NCBI GenBank assembly: GCA_000817105.1
Contig: JUEP01000001.1
Span: 45,095 to 109,094, forward strand
Direction of reading: 5' to 3'
Source of the DNA: a marine actinobacterium MedAcidi-G3
GTDB taxonomy: Bacteria > Actinomycetota > Acidimicrobiia > Acidimicrobiales > Poriferisodalaceae
DNA length: 64,000 bases
The translations under genes were made by a program, and so were the position numbers. Of this stretch, positions 12,796-27,343 are shown piece after piece (the first letter of the stretch is position 1; every line of letters begins with the position of its first letter). The notes under the pieces were generated by a model. That model saw only the letters and a list, made by a program, of their open reading frames with translations. It ran no database searches and was not told the origin of the DNA.

Positions 12796-14180
12796 GATGA
12801 CTTAGGTGGTAGGAGGACGTTAGGGTTGAGGATTCCCTTTGGGTCAAGTGATGCTTTGATGGCCCGAAAAGCTGCAAGCTCAGATTCGGATCGATTGAGA
12901 TGGAGAAACTCTTTTTTTGCACTGCCGATGCCGTGTTCTGCAGAGATACTTCCTCCAAGCTCAGCTGCATAGTGAAGTACAGCGCGGTCAACCTCTTCGC
13001 TGGGTTCAGTGCCCTGCTCTCCCAAGATGTTGACATGTACATTGCCGTCTCCCAAATGGCCGAACATTAGAGCCGTTGCGCGACTGTCTATCCGCGAAAT
13101 CAGGTGGGGGACTCCGTTGACGAATTCTGCCAGCCGCGATGCGCTGAGGGTCACATCGAGCTTATGTGGAGTTCCTCTCGTGGCGATAGCCTCAGTGATC
13201 TTCTCGCGATATTGCCAAAGATTGTTACGGGCTGCTGGCTCTATGCCCACTGCAACGTCTATGGGAAGTGTTTCGAGTAGGGCGATGCTATTAGCCAATT
13301 CGTCAGTTGGGTCATTGGTTGCTGCTACTTCAACAAGTAACCACGCCCGAGCTTCAGGTCCTACTGGGATAGAGGCTTTAATATGATCCGAGACTAAATG
13401 CATGGTCTCGCCAAAGATGACTTCAACGGCGTGGAGTGACGGCAGTGTTCGGCGAAGCTGCGCAGTTGCAGCTACCGCATCATCAACGGTGTTTAAGGCG
13501 ATCATTGCTGAGCAGCGTTCGCTCAGTTGTGGGTGTAGCCGCAAACGAGCCTTGGTGATGATGCCTAACGTGCCCTCGCTGCCTGCTAGCAAACCAGGAA
13601 AGCTGTAGCCGGTGTTATCCTTTTCCAAGCCTTCGAGGTGACTGATGATCGAGCCATCGGACAGTACAGCTTCAAGGCCTAAGACTTGGTCGCGCATCGC
13701 CCCGTAGCGGACAACGTTTATGCCGCCAGCGTTTGTAGCGATCATTCCACCGATAGTGCAGCTACCGCGGGCAGCGAGGTCAACACCTATGTCAAAACCC
13801 TGTTCGGAAGCGTGTGACTGAGCTTTGGCTAACGTGGTGCCTGCGCCAGCGGTTACCTGCTGAGCCAACCCATCAACTGGCTCGCATTGGTCCAGACGTA
13901 AAGTGGAGATGACAATCTCTTGATTTAGGGGAACGCTTCCACCGACCAAACCTGTATTGCCTCCCTGGGGCACGATGCTGATGCCGGCATGTGCGGCAAC
14001 CTTCACCAGTGCTGCGATTTGAAAGGTATCGGCGGGCCGCAGCACCATGGGCGACCGGCCGACAAATCGTCCAGTCCAGTCTGTCGTGTAGCTAGCTGTT
14101 AGGTCGGGCTCTTGCAAGGCGTGGTTAGGGCCAACGATGTTTAGAAATTCCTGGAGGACGGATTCGTCGAGCTTTCCCAT
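12792..14180 (-). CDS. FAD-binding oxidase (GlcD/D-2-hydroxyacid dehydrogenase family)
   Basis: VPQGGNTGLVGGSVP, CTIGGMIATNAGG, GSEGTLGIITKA, FGHLGDGNVHVN, SAEHGIGSAKK. Confidence 0.93.
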   Translation of the reverse strand: MGKLDESVLQEFLNIVGPNHALQEPDLTASYTTDWTGRFVGRSPMVLRPADTFQIAALVKVAAHAGISIVPQGGNTGLVGGSVPLNQEIVISTLRLDQCEPVDGLAQQVTAGAGTTLAKAQSHASEQGFDIGVDLAARGSCTIGGMIATNAGGINVVRYGAMRDQVLGLEAVLSDGSIISHLEGLEKDNTGYSFPGLLAGSEGTLGIITKARLRLHPQLSERCSAMIALNTVDDAVAATAQLRRTLPSLHAVEVIFGETMHLVSDHIKASIPVGPEARAWLLVEVAATNDPTDELANSIALLETLPIDVAVGIEPAARNNLWQYREKITEAIATRGTPHKLDVTLSASRLAEFVNGVPHLISRIDSRATALMFGHLGDGNVHVNILGEQGTEPSEEVDRAVLHYAAELGGSISAEHGIGSAKKEFLHLNRSESELAAFRAIKASLDPKGILNPNVLLPPKSS

Positions 14181-22748: not shown

Positions 22749-22755
22749 GATTGCC

Positions 22756-22791
22756 GTGGTTTGTTCCACTGTGTGGTCCATTGGGACTTAG
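22756..22791 (+). other. Candidate leaderless uORF, 11 aa (VVCSTVWSIGT)
   Basis: GTG GTT TGT TCC ACT GTG TGG TCC ATT GGG ACT TAG; overlaps hairpin 22766-22797. Confidence 0.3.
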
Positions 22792-22822
22792 CAGTGGGCG
22801 GTTTGGAGACGAGGAGCCATCC

Positions 22823-23053
22823 GTGAAGAAGGGTCGTCATCGCCGATACGAAGAGGCGAGAAAATTTCATAGAGACAATGCGGCCGCTTTTTCGGTTGAA
22901 GACTTTGATTTCGATGAACCTGATTTGTTCTCGAAAGAAGAAGAAGACGCGCCCGATGACCAATACGGCGACCTTGCAGACAAATACGACGATTACTCAG
23001 ATTTGGCTGCCAAGTATGCTGATTTTGATGACACAGAAGAAGGCAAGTCCTAA
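22823..23053 (+). CDS. Small highly acidic hypothetical protein
   Basis: GTG 22823 preceded by GAGACGAGGAG; sequence MKKGRHRRYEEARKF...DLADKYDDYSDLAAKYADFDDTEEGKS. Confidence 0.7.
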   Translation: MKKGRHRRYEEARKFHRDNAAAFSVEDFDFDEPDLFSKEEEDAPDDQYGDLADKYDDYSDLAAKYADFDDTEEGKS

Positions 23054-23063
23054 GTTCTAGTCG

Positions 23064-23810
23064 TCACCGGCGCCTGACTGTCGGGTGCGGAAGAAAAGAA
23101 GTGGACGATTGTCGGAGGTCTAGCTCCGACCTCAGCCACCCGTAGACAGTGGAGCCGCAAATCTCGTCCAACTCCGCTTCCATTTGCTTATATACAGGAG
23201 TGGCCCCTACATGGGCTTGAGGGTCTGATGTGCACCACCACCAAATATCTGTTTCTTCGCCACCCCAGTCGCGTCGCTCCCATTCTCGCACCATGGTGTA
23301 GATGTGGCCGGTAGCTGTCTCGTGATCCTCTCGCCGTATGGGCGCCTGCCAACAAATTTCGGGCTTCAGCTCCATGGGTTTTTCGCCTGTTGATAGCGCT
23401 AGTTGATGGAAAGCGCATCCAGCGCCATTCGGATGATCTGGACGATTTTGAAAAACACAAGCACCTTCTACCACTCTGGTTCGCCACCACCCCTCGTCGT
23501 CCTGCCAGAGGCCGCCCCCAGTATCGTTGGCATGTTCTTTGTATTGCCAAAGTTCTGGAGTAAGACGTTCGATTTGCTCCCGCACATGCTTGAGGTCCTC
23601 ATCGCCCGAGATGTAGGCACCGTGGGTGCAACAGCCGAGCTCTTTTTCAGGTGCCGGTTCGGGTTCCACGCCCGGGCAACCCGCCCCGTAGATGCAAGTC
23701 CAGGCACTACTCAGAAAGGTTATGTCAAAGAGCCAAGTTCGATGTTCACTTGGGTCCTCGAAAGATAACCACTCTCGATCCGGATTAGATGACGTTAAGG
23801 ACTTCGTCAC
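23064..23810 (-). CDS. Conserved Cys-rich hypothetical protein (YkgJ/DUF3109-like)
   Basis: Long ORF with CIYGAGCPG, GCCTHGAYIS, GACVFQN, GAGCAFH, EICWQAPIR. Confidence 0.7.
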   Translation of the reverse strand: MTKSLTSSNPDREWLSFEDPSEHRTWLFDITFLSSAWTCIYGAGCPGVEPEPAPEKELGCCTHGAYISGDEDLKHVREQIERLTPELWQYKEHANDTGGGLWQDDEGWWRTRVVEGACVFQNRPDHPNGAGCAFHQLALSTGEKPMELKPEICWQAPIRREDHETATGHIYTMVREWERRDWGGEETDIWWWCTSDPQAHVGATPVYKQMEAELDEICGSTVYGWLRSELDLRQSSTSFLPHPTVRRR

Positions 23811-23816
23811 AGCTCC

Positions 23817-23826
23817 ATCCTACGGT
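23817..23826. promoter_or_regulatory. Overlapping divergent leaderless -10 boxes (minus TAGGAT 23817-23822; plus TACGGT 23821-23826)
   Basis: ATCCTACGGT; each box 6 nt from its GTG (23810 minus, 23833 plus). Confidence 0.5.
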
Positions 23827-23832
23827 ACGTTC

Positions 23833-25275
23833 GTGTCTGTGCAGAATAAGAGTGATGCCAAGCTGTTTGATGACTTACATGCCGTTTTAGGTGATCGGGC
23901 TAGAGCAGGCGATTTTGAGCTTGGGCTCTACGGCAAAGATGGCTCGGTACTGCAAGGAGAACCGGCGATTGTCTGCTTGCCAGTGGACACCCCGGAGGTG
24001 AGAGAGATTGTTGACATTTGCCTCGATCATGGGCGTCCATTTCTGGCTAGAGGCTCAGGTACTGGTCTTGCCGGCGGCGCTGTGCCGGTTGGCGACCCAG
24101 TCATAATCGCAACGGCGAAAATGAACAAAATTATTGAAGTTGATTTAGACAACAGGATTGCCTGGGTGGAACCAGGGGTTTTGAACTTAGATTTAAGTAG
24201 AGAGTTGATGCCACTTGGCTTTCATTTCGCTCCAGACCCATCTAGTCAACAGGTCTGTTCAATCGGAGGAAACGTAGCCAACAACAGTGGCGGACCTCAC
24301 TGTTTGGCGTACGGAGTGACCAGCGCCCATGTTGCAGCGATAGAGGTAGTGCTGCCTGACGGAAGCGTGACCGTCTTAGGTGATTTGACAGCTGAACCTG
24401 GTGGGTATGATCTCCGAGGGCTCTTCGTCGGTTCCGAAGGAACAATGGGCGTTGCCACCAAGATTGCTGTGCGGTTAACTCCGAATCCTCCGGCAATTCG
24501 CACGCTCCTTCTCGACTTTGAAGATGTTCGGGACGGAGCAGCAGCTGTGTCTGCCATTATTGCTGCTGGACTTATACCAGCCGCTCTCGAAATGATGGAT
24601 AAACGTGCAATCGAAATCGTTGAAGCGTTTGTAAATGCTGGATACCCAACCGAAGCCGATGCAGTTCTGCTAGTTGAACTTGACGGACTACCCGGAGGAG
24701 TTGAACACGGAGTCGAAGTTGTTCGATCAGTCGCAGAACGGCACCAGGTAGGAAATGTTCGAGTAGCCGTTGACGACGAGGAACGAGAACTCCTGTGGAA
24801 AGGCCGCAAGAATGCTTTCGGTGCGGTCGCAAGAATTAAACCTGACTACTACCTGCACGACACTGTGGTTCCTCGAGGAAAGCTCGTTGAAGTGTTGGAA
24901 AAGGTCTACAACATTGCAGACGCCTATGACTTAATTGCCGTCAACGTATTTCACGCGGGCGATGGAAACCTCCATCCTATTTTGGCCTATGACAGCAGTG
25001 AACCAGGTGTTTTGGAAAGAGTGCATGCGGCCGGACGAGCCATCGTGACCGCGTCGATTGAGGCGGGCGGAGTCCTAAGTGGTGAACACGGCATCGGACT
25101 TGAAAAGCGCGATTACATGGGAATGCTCTTTAGCTCTCATGACATGGCCACACAGGATTTGATCCGAGAAGCATTCGATCCTCAAGGCTTCGCTAATCCG
25201 TTGAAAGTCTTGCCTTCCGGATCTCGGTGCAGCGACTCCTTTCACCAGCATGTGCCCGAGGGAGCATGGGTGTGA
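23833..25275 (+). CDS. glcD: FAD-linked oxidase, glycolate oxidase GlcD-like
   Basis: LARGSGTGLAGGAVPV, CSIGGNVANNSGG, GSEGTMGVATK, VNVFHAGDGNLHP, SGEHGIGLEKRDYM; GTG 23833 preferred start. Confidence 0.9.
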   Translation: MSVQNKSDAKLFDDLHAVLGDRARAGDFELGLYGKDGSVLQGEPAIVCLPVDTPEVREIVDICLDHGRPFLARGSGTGLAGGAVPVGDPVIIATAKMNKIIEVDLDNRIAWVEPGVLNLDLSRELMPLGFHFAPDPSSQQVCSIGGNVANNSGGPHCLAYGVTSAHVAAIEVVLPDGSVTVLGDLTAEPGGYDLRGLFVGSEGTMGVATKIAVRLTPNPPAIRTLLLDFEDVRDGAAAVSAIIAAGLIPAALEMMDKRAIEIVEAFVNAGYPTEADAVLLVELDGLPGGVEHGVEVVRSVAERHQVGNVRVAVDDEERELLWKGRKNAFGAVARIKPDYYLHDTVVPRGKLVEVLEKVYNIADAYDLIAVNVFHAGDGNLHPILAYDSSEPGVLERVHAAGRAIVTASIEAGGVLSGEHGIGLEKRDYMGMLFSSHDMATQDLIREAFDPQGFANPLKVLPSGSRCSDSFHQHVPEGAWV

Positions 25276-26186
25276 GTTTAGAAGAACAAATCTCACCGGA
25301 AATACGCAAGTTTGCAGCCGAAGTTGGCCCCACTGGACCAGTAACAGTCGCTGGCGGCCAAACGCAATGGGAAGTAGGCGGGCTTCCTGATCCGAATGTT
25401 AGGAAGGTGGTCGCACCGTCAGGTGTGTGGTCTCATCAGCCTGAGGAGATGACGGTGAGATGCGGGGCTGGAACGACGCTCATCGAACTATCGGAGGTAC
25501 TGGCACAACATAGTCAGATGGTGCCGTTGGATATGGCTCCGAACGCAACTGTGGGTGGAGTTCTAGCCGTTGGAAGGAGTGGAATCCGGCGGCTCAGGTA
25601 TGGCCCTATGCGAGACCTTGTTCTTCAAATTCGACACGTGGACCACGCAGGTAAAATTGTTACCTCTGGTGGACCAACCGTCAAAAACGTATCCGGATAT
25701 GACTTGTGTCGACTGCTCGTCGGTTCCTTAGGGAAATTTGGTTGTATAGCTGAAGTTATCCTCCGGTGCTTGCCAATACCGGCCGCCACGAAGTGGTTAT
25801 CTGGGATCGCTGATCCCTTCGAGGTTTACTCAAAGTTGTATCGGCCGTCCTCGATCCTGTGGGATGGAAAGCGGGTTTGGGTATGCATAGAAGGCGTCTT
25901 ATCTGACGTTGAAGCTGAAGCTGCTCTTTTAAATTTAGAAGAGGTTGAAGGACCGCCTGCGTTGCCCGTAGGAGGGCGAGTAGCACTCGAACCCAAATCC
26001 CTCAAAGATCTCGAAGTCAATGGAAGTAATTGGATTGCCGAGATAGGCGTTGGAATCGTTCACGGCGATATTCCTATTGGCGGCGGGCAGGTGTCTGAAC
26101 GCAACCGTTCCTTGATGAGGGACTTGGAGCATAGGCTGGACCCGACTGGGCGGTTGAACCCGGGTCGACAGGTTGTAGAAGCATGA
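25266..26186 (+). CDS. glcE: FAD-binding protein, glycolate oxidase GlcE-like
   Basis: Between GlcD and GlcF; VAGGQTQWEVGG, GTTLIELSEVL, YGPMRDLVL, TVKNVSGYDLCRLLVGSLGKFG. Confidence 0.85.
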   Translation: MGVSLEEQISPEIRKFAAEVGPTGPVTVAGGQTQWEVGGLPDPNVRKVVAPSGVWSHQPEEMTVRCGAGTTLIELSEVLAQHSQMVPLDMAPNATVGGVLAVGRSGIRRLRYGPMRDLVLQIRHVDHAGKIVTSGGPTVKNVSGYDLCRLLVGSLGKFGCIAEVILRCLPIPAATKWLSGIADPFEVYSKLYRPSSILWDGKRVWVCIEGVLSDVEAEAALLNLEEVEGPPALPVGGRVALEPKSLKDLEVNGSNWIAEIGVGIVHGDIPIGGGQVSERNRSLMRDLEHRLDPTGRLNPGRQVVEA

Positions 26187-27343
26187 CAAAAACTAAAATT
26201 GATCTTGGGATTCCTCAAAGTGACCTGGTTTCATGTGTCTCATGTGGTCTCTGTTTGCCGCACTGTCCGACATATCGAGTTACTCAAGAAGAGTCGGCCT
26301 CACCGCGCGGGCGTATTGCTCTGATGAAAGCAGCGGCTGATACCGGCGTTGTCGATGAAGAGTTTGTCGGATTCATGGATGCGTGTATTCAGTGTCGGGG
26401 TTGCGAAACTGCATGTCCCGCTGGGGTTCAGTTTGGGTCGATGATGGAGACGACTCGAGAGGCCTTGGCGACTCAAACCGCTTATCAGCCGTGGTGGCGC
26501 CGGCTTGGCTATCAGGCGTTGGGATGGCCTAGAATTTTGACGTTTGGTTCCAAGATCTTGGCAGTGCTTCAACGTTTCAAGGTCGTACCAAAGCGGCTGG
26601 GCCTGCCAAAAATTCCACTGACTCAAAAACGACTGGTGGCTAGCGGCAACGACGTTTTTCTCTTTACAGGGTGCATTATGGACGCCTGGATGCGTGAGAC
26701 CCATCAAGCAGTTCAACGGGTTATTGAAGCGACTGGAAATGGAGTCCAATTTCCAGACAGGGGAGCTGCTTGCTGTGGTGCTTTACATGTGCATGCAGGG
26801 CTTGCCGAGGATGCGCGCCGATTAGCAGCAAAAACCATGTCGGCTTTTCCCGGTAAAGCACCAATTTTGGTGGATTCAGCAGGGTGCGGGGCTCAGTTAA
26901 AAGACTATGGTCATCTTCTAAAAACTCAAGAGGCAAAAGACTTTTCTGCTCGGGTACTGGATGTTCATGAGTGGCTGGCAGAACATCTAGATGAATTGCC
27001 GCCGGCGCCGAAAGGTGGCGTCCCGGTCGCTGTTCAGGACCCGTGTCACCTTCGCCATGTTCAGCGATCTCATAAGTCGGTATATGAGGTTCTCGGTCGT
27101 TACACAGAAGCAGTGACCCTCGACGATGAGGGGTTGTGTTGTGGAGCCGGGGGAGCATATTCAGCATTTCACCCTGACACGGCGGCTGAGGTTCGAGACA
27201 GAAAAGTGGCGTCTATTGAGCGATCAGGTGCTGCGATAGTCGCTAGCGCCAATCCAGGTTGCCTTTTGCATCTTCGTTCAGCTGGCCTAGATGTCCGACA
27301 TCCCTTAGAAATCATCGACTCGATCATGACCAAAGATGTTTGA
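26183..27343 (+). CDS. glcF: (Fe-S)-binding protein, glycolate oxidase GlcF-like
   Basis: CVSCGLCLPHCPTYR, CIQCRGCETACPAGV, CCGALHVHAG, DPCHLRHVQR, GLCCGAGGAY. Confidence 0.92.
   Translation: MTKTKIDLGIPQSDLVSCVSCGLCLPHCPTYRVTQEESASPRGRIALMKAAADTGVVDEEFVGFMDACIQCRGCETACPAGVQFGSMMETTREALATQTAYQPWWRRLGYQALGWPRILTFGSKILAVLQRFKVVPKRLGLPKIPLTQKRLVASGNDVFLFTGCIMDAWMRETHQAVQRVIEATGNGVQFPDRGAACCGALHVHAGLAEDARRLAAKTMSAFPGKAPILVDSAGCGAQLKDYGHLLKTQEAKDFSARVLDVHEWLAEHLDELPPAPKGGVPVAVQDPCHLRHVQRSHKSVYEVLGRYTEAVTLDDEGLCCGAGGAYSAFHPDTAAEVRDRKVASIERSGAAIVASANPGCLLHLRSAGLDVRHPLEIIDSIMTKDV

Follow-up and report, generated by a model that had tools for sequence, protein, structure and literature searches.

In Actinobacteria, leaderless genes carry a TANNNT -10 hexamer, with the start codon about 12 bp downstream (PMC3160421, PMC3898074). 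In M. tuberculosis, closely juxtaposed divergent promoters are called common, and one such pair of neighbours, Rv1129c/prpD, consists of two leaderless genes, one of them a regulator, that are induced together in starvation (PMC3898074). Bidirectional promoters of the Warman type are defined by divergent starts 7-25 bp apart with reciprocal overlap of the -10 elements (PMC12825309; PMC10268837); leaderless transcripts are mentioned in neither of these two papers. In five bidirectional promoters of E. coli, basal transcription is too low for polymerase competition, and the partner is repressed only if one direction is strongly activated (PMC12825309).

The locus described here lies in a stretch of 64,000 nucleotides (the window) from a 2.1 Mb genome, the assembly of which is 88.6% complete; this genome has its closest named relatives among metagenome assemblies of Acidimicrobiaceae/Acidimicrobiales, of which many are marine. 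On the plus strand, glcD, encoding the FAD subunit of glycolate oxidase, extends from a probable GTG start at 23839 to 25275 and is followed by glcE-like (25227-26186, plus strand) and glcF-like (26183-27343, plus strand) genes, both identified by Pfam and NCBIfam matches, which together complete a glcDEF operon. The glcD product contains the FAD_binding_4 and FAD-oxidase_C domains and matches TIGR00387 (glcD) over the full length with 457 bits, below the equivalog cut-off of 567.9; given that glcE and glcF are found alongside, the name GlcD serves well as a working label. On the minus strand, 12798-14060 encodes another FAD-oxidase (GlcD-like) paralogue, which shares 29% identity with glcD.

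The divergent neighbour of glcD (23064-23810, minus strand, GTG start) encodes a Cys-rich protein of 248 amino acids, in which six Cys are invariant and other residues are conserved across the order. Its match to Pfam PF11307 (DUF3109) scores 28.1 bits, under the curated gathering score of 33.5, and judging by this the protein may be at most a distant DUF3109 relative. It was found in 59 of the 61 genomes searched, an occurrence expected for a housekeeping gene. Structure, PHROG and PADLOC searches with this protein gave nothing useful, and no mention of DUF3109 was found in the literature searched. Convergent with this gene is an acidic 100-aa ORF with no family match (22751-23053, plus strand).

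Between the GTG codon of the Cys-rich gene (23810-23808 on the minus strand) and a GTG at 23833-23835 on the plus strand there is a 22-bp spacer, 23811-23832, with the sequence AGCTCCATCCTACGGTACGTTC. According to the sequence-only reading, this spacer contains TAGGAT-N6-GTG on the minus strand (ATCCTA on the plus strand, 23817-23822) and TACGGT-N6-GTG on the plus strand (hexamer at 23821-23826, GTG at 23833), the two hexamers having 2 bp in common, and, if both are real, would form a mutually exclusive switch. All these letters and coordinates agree with the window sequence. Our analysis makes it likely that the spacer consists of two adjacent divergent leaderless TANNNT promoters, and that the arrangement reflects compaction rather than a switch.

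For the analysis of conservation, we compared 17 distinct Acidimicrobiales genomes (the window and 16 others), with the loci placed by tblastn with both genes. The conservation of the spacer in related genomes, proposed earlier as a check, is indeed observed: the start-to-start geometry is identical in all 17 genomes, with the identity of the Cys-rich protein going down to 70%, and in the 14-bp core 23819-23832 all columns but one are invariant (13 of 14, the sole exception being 23825, A/G). Among third codon positions in the same genomes, the invariant fraction is 8% in the Cys-rich gene and 1% in glcD, and any other run of 14 columns within 300 bp contains fewer than 13 invariant ones. In more distant relatives within the order the Cys-rich gene is often kept and the glcD neighbour sometimes, but not the spacer. 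One relative (L058 / L102) has a frameshifted Cys-rich gene and a spacer longer by 1 nt, due to either an assembly error or decay.

Conservation of this kind, together with the direct repeat TACG-R-TACG formed by the 14 conserved bases, could also be due to the binding of a transcription factor by which both genes are co-regulated or toggled. This is highly unlikely, as the block can be divided neatly into two promoter modules and no regulator gene was found directly beside the pair; moreover, outside the spacer CCTACGRTACG is found only once in the 2.1 Mb genome, within a coding region, and the block was thus rejected as a regulon motif.

The two-promoter reading agrees with the general properties of this genome. 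In a sample of 838 kb with 721 called genes (simple ORF/hexamer gene calling, not full annotation), TAnnnT precedes the longest-ORF starts with the spacing N6 in 6.9% of genes, N7 in 5.3%, and N8 in 2.8%, compared with 0.2-0.3% at internal ATG/GTG codons, which means about 10-35-fold enrichment before gene starts. The net fraction of leaderless-looking genes is about 14% (the published average for Actinobacteria is 19%; PMC3160421), and hence a leaderless setting is normal for this genome. Taken together with the geometry and the core kept in 17 genomes, the enrichment shows that the layout is more than chance. A scan of the locus with the sigma-70 consensus found nothing, this being uninformative for actinobacterial promoters. 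The -35 element is often absent from promoters of Actinobacteria.

On the minus strand, the leaderless assignment is well supported by comparison of the sequences. The N-terminus of the Cys-rich protein aligns from residue 1-2 in 17 genomes, and GTG at 23810, present in 17/17, is the sole start codon of this gene that they all have in common; it is preceded four codons upstream by an in-frame TAG that is itself part of the -10 hexamer of this gene. The hexamer (23817-23822) is TAGGAT in the window and TAGGCT in many relatives; its TA and final T are unchanged in all 17 genomes at the N6 distance, and both the start codon and the -10 element that had been assigned to this gene thus hold. A positional weight matrix (PWM) was built from the TAnnnT-before-start sites of the window's genome with the focal pair left out; TAGGAT-N6-GTG scores 6.8 bits, the mean of the training sites, chosen by the same TAnnnT rule as used for the enrichment, being 7.5. 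Bases 23811-23815 differ among the relatives, and consequently these lack a conserved counterpart of the GGAG near the start codon; with the in-frame stop four codons upstream, neither room nor signal is left for a Shine-Dalgarno leader.

The start of glcD, in turn, probably has to be revised. The codon at 23833, which had been taken for the start, is GTC or ATC in 16/17 genomes (C at 23835), GTG being a private change in the window's genome, and the only plus-strand start codon common to all 17 genomes is 23839-23841 (GTG in 16, ATG in one). Hence GTG at 23833 was probably a wrong assignment, and the true start, as far as the alignment tells, is probably 23839, 6 bases downstream. The alignment of homologues, suggested earlier as a way to reveal starts located further downstream, does so for glcD and leaves the minus-strand start at 23810. 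The opposite possibility is that glcD starts inside the Cys-rich gene, at ATG 23692, in which case the spacer would be coding. In the window's genome the frame is open to 23692; still, we give this start almost no credence, since the conservation of the spacer ignores codon positions, and in 9/17 genomes an in-frame stop between the Cys-rich coding region and the codon at 23839 excludes any upstream start, which refutes ATG 23692 for the relatives.

Measured from the revised start, the glcD promoter would be formed by the block CGRTACGTTC (23823-23832, plus strand), in which the hexamer TACGTT (23826-23831) stands N7 before GTG 23839 in 17 genomes. The hexamer and C23832 are invariant in 17/17 genomes; with 9.8 bits in the window, TACGTT is the best plus-strand site according to the PWM, and it remains the best one in each of the 17 genomes. 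A CGN extension of the TACGTT -10 element explains why CG is conserved at 23823-23824, CGN being the most common extension before TANNNT in M. tuberculosis (PMC3898074). The hexamer proposed earlier, TACGGT at 23821-23826 (TACGAT in 10/17 genomes), scores about 3.2 bits (identical sequence in L031; range about 2-4) and is followed by A, which constitutes 4% at this position of the leaderless logo; it is probably not the main -10 element of glcD.

This hexamer underlies two further explanations. According to the first one, TACGGT, sharing TA with the minus-strand hexamer, drives glcD from 23833, yielding a leaderless GTG here and a 6-nt leader elsewhere. Indeed, all 17 adjacent loci retain TACGRT, the GTG at 23833 lies in frame, the distance of 23 bp from the minus start is a common spacing of transcription starts at bidirectional promoters (PMC12825309), and the same layout is seen in two other conserved pairs (see below). 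Nonetheless, this explanation is unlikely in view of the low PWM score, the unfavourable A and the lack of a start codon in 16/17 genomes. According to the second one, both plus-strand hexamers are active, so that transcription would start in tandem, at 23833 and at about 23839, with slightly differing 5' ends, as TACGRTACGTT keeps both of them in adjacent loci; this is somewhat less doubtful, but the conservation of CG is accounted for by the extended second -10 element.

Both explanations meet a further difficulty in g5, a second genus of the same family, where the two genes are adjacent in four loci and split in seven (L048-L053, L057). The four adjacent loci have CCTACGGTACGGTC followed by GTG, with the second TACGGT at N6 from the glcD start. 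In the seven split loci, 109-131 bp separate the two promoter elements; AGCCTA remains with the Cys-rich gene and TACGGT-N6-GTG with glcD, while the first, overlapping TACGGT is absent from 7/7 and is thus dispensable in g5. As each gene keeps its own hexamer when the genes are split, the promoters are separable units that do not require the 2-bp overlap. The claims that TACGGT is the -10 element of glcD and that the overlap is a working design are therefore not upheld, TACGTT, which does not overlap the minus-strand hexamer, being better supported. Split and adjacent g5 loci interleave in the tree of both proteins. The insert between the Cys-rich gene and glcD in g5 carries a dispersed GC-rich repeat with the core about CGGGGCCCGAGCGGCCCGTGAGC, which is matched at 24-43 places in each g5 genome but nowhere in the genome of the window.

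Compact divergent pairs are not restricted to this locus. Among 117 divergent pairs in the sample of the window's genome, the starts on both sides are of the leaderless type in 13, four of these pairs being within 40 bp, compared with 0-4 both-side pairs and 0-1 within 40 bp for control patterns and offsets. Therefore, the back-to-back pair is less unusual than described earlier, the more so given the Rv1129c/prpD precedent (PMC3898074). In the window itself, a histidine phosphatase and a pyruvate kinase gene also form a divergent pair with leaderless-type starts on both sides (17768/17884), 116 bp apart.

Two of the four pairs within 40 bp consist of housekeeping genes: HIT/CDP-alcohol phosphatidyltransferase and ribulose-phosphate epimerase (rpe)/tRNA-methyltransferase-like (L070 6064/6089; L132 15567/15592). 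In both, the -10 hexamers do share TA and stand N7 from the respective starts, and the 24-bp spacers are conserved across genera. Judging by these sequences, the TA-sharing design exists in this lineage, and the glcD/DUF3109 pair is not its best example. The TA-sharing pattern was compared with the reversed-pattern control in 61 genomes, giving 93 v 86 in the family and 50 v 24 in the rest of the order; since within the family the counts barely exceed the control, the motif alone is no proof, and TA-sharing pairs were counted only with two long ORFs and conservation.

The preferred reading, i.e. two adjacent promoters, draws on what was observed in the sequences: the conserved columns, the shared start codons, the leaderless signature of the whole genome and the separable hexamers. 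TAGGAT-N6-GTG would serve the DUF3109-like housekeeping gene, and CGR-TACGTT-N7-GTG 23839 the glcDEF operon, with RNA polymerase carrying the main sigma factor taking one promoter or the other. The predicted transcription starts coincide with 23810 and 23839, 29 bp apart, or lie about one base away, and leaderless initiation of the 70S type would follow. The polymerase footprints should overlap, and we infer that two polymerases are sterically unlikely to bind both promoters simultaneously and would not be found on the spacer together. Thus, what is supported in the sequence-only reading is two divergent, essentially UTR-free promoters that occupy a conserved spacer of 22 bp and extend upstream into the opposite gene. 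A mutually exclusive switch, on the other hand, is not supported, the basal activity of the E. coli promoters being too low and similar pairs comprising unrelated housekeeping genes. Since the Cys-rich gene is nearly ubiquitous in the genomes searched and the other compact pairs combine housekeeping genes of unrelated function, compaction of the genome explains the arrangement more simply. It is improbable, but conceivable, that in Acidimicrobiales UTR-free bidirectional promoters (with shared TA or a 22-24 bp spacer) form a class that recurs and is maintained by selection, with polymerases competing at them in vivo; if so, this class would couple unrelated genes, as in the pairs HIT/CDP-alcohol transferase, rpe/tRNA-methyltransferase-like and DUF3109/glcD.

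Compared with the described systems, the locus resembles actinobacterial leaderless TANNNT genes in the hexamer, the spacing, the lack of a Shine-Dalgarno sequence and the genome-wide signature, but here two such promoters stand back to back in 22 bp. As in Warman-type promoters, divergent starts arise, by prediction, from nearly the same DNA with one site being contested; unlike in those, the predicted spacing of 29 bp with TACGTT exceeds the range of 7-25 bp, and the hexamers have no bases in common. With TACGGT instead, the predicted spacing would be 23 bp, that is, the 23-bp class of Warman promoters, but the sequence evidence favours 29. Rv1129c/prpD is similar in that the divergent neighbours are both leaderless (predicted here), but differs from the window pair in that its genes are co-induced in starvation and one of them is a regulator.

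Leaderless TANNNT promoters are already standard in Actinobacteria, and the glcD/DUF3109 pair is a further well-conserved case. It shows the extent to which promoters can be compressed, with two genes served from 22 bp with, as predicted, no untranslated leader, and it corrects, in all probability, the start of glcD for this lineage. Moreover, the split and adjacent loci within one genus provide a natural comparison for the effect of separating abutting promoters.
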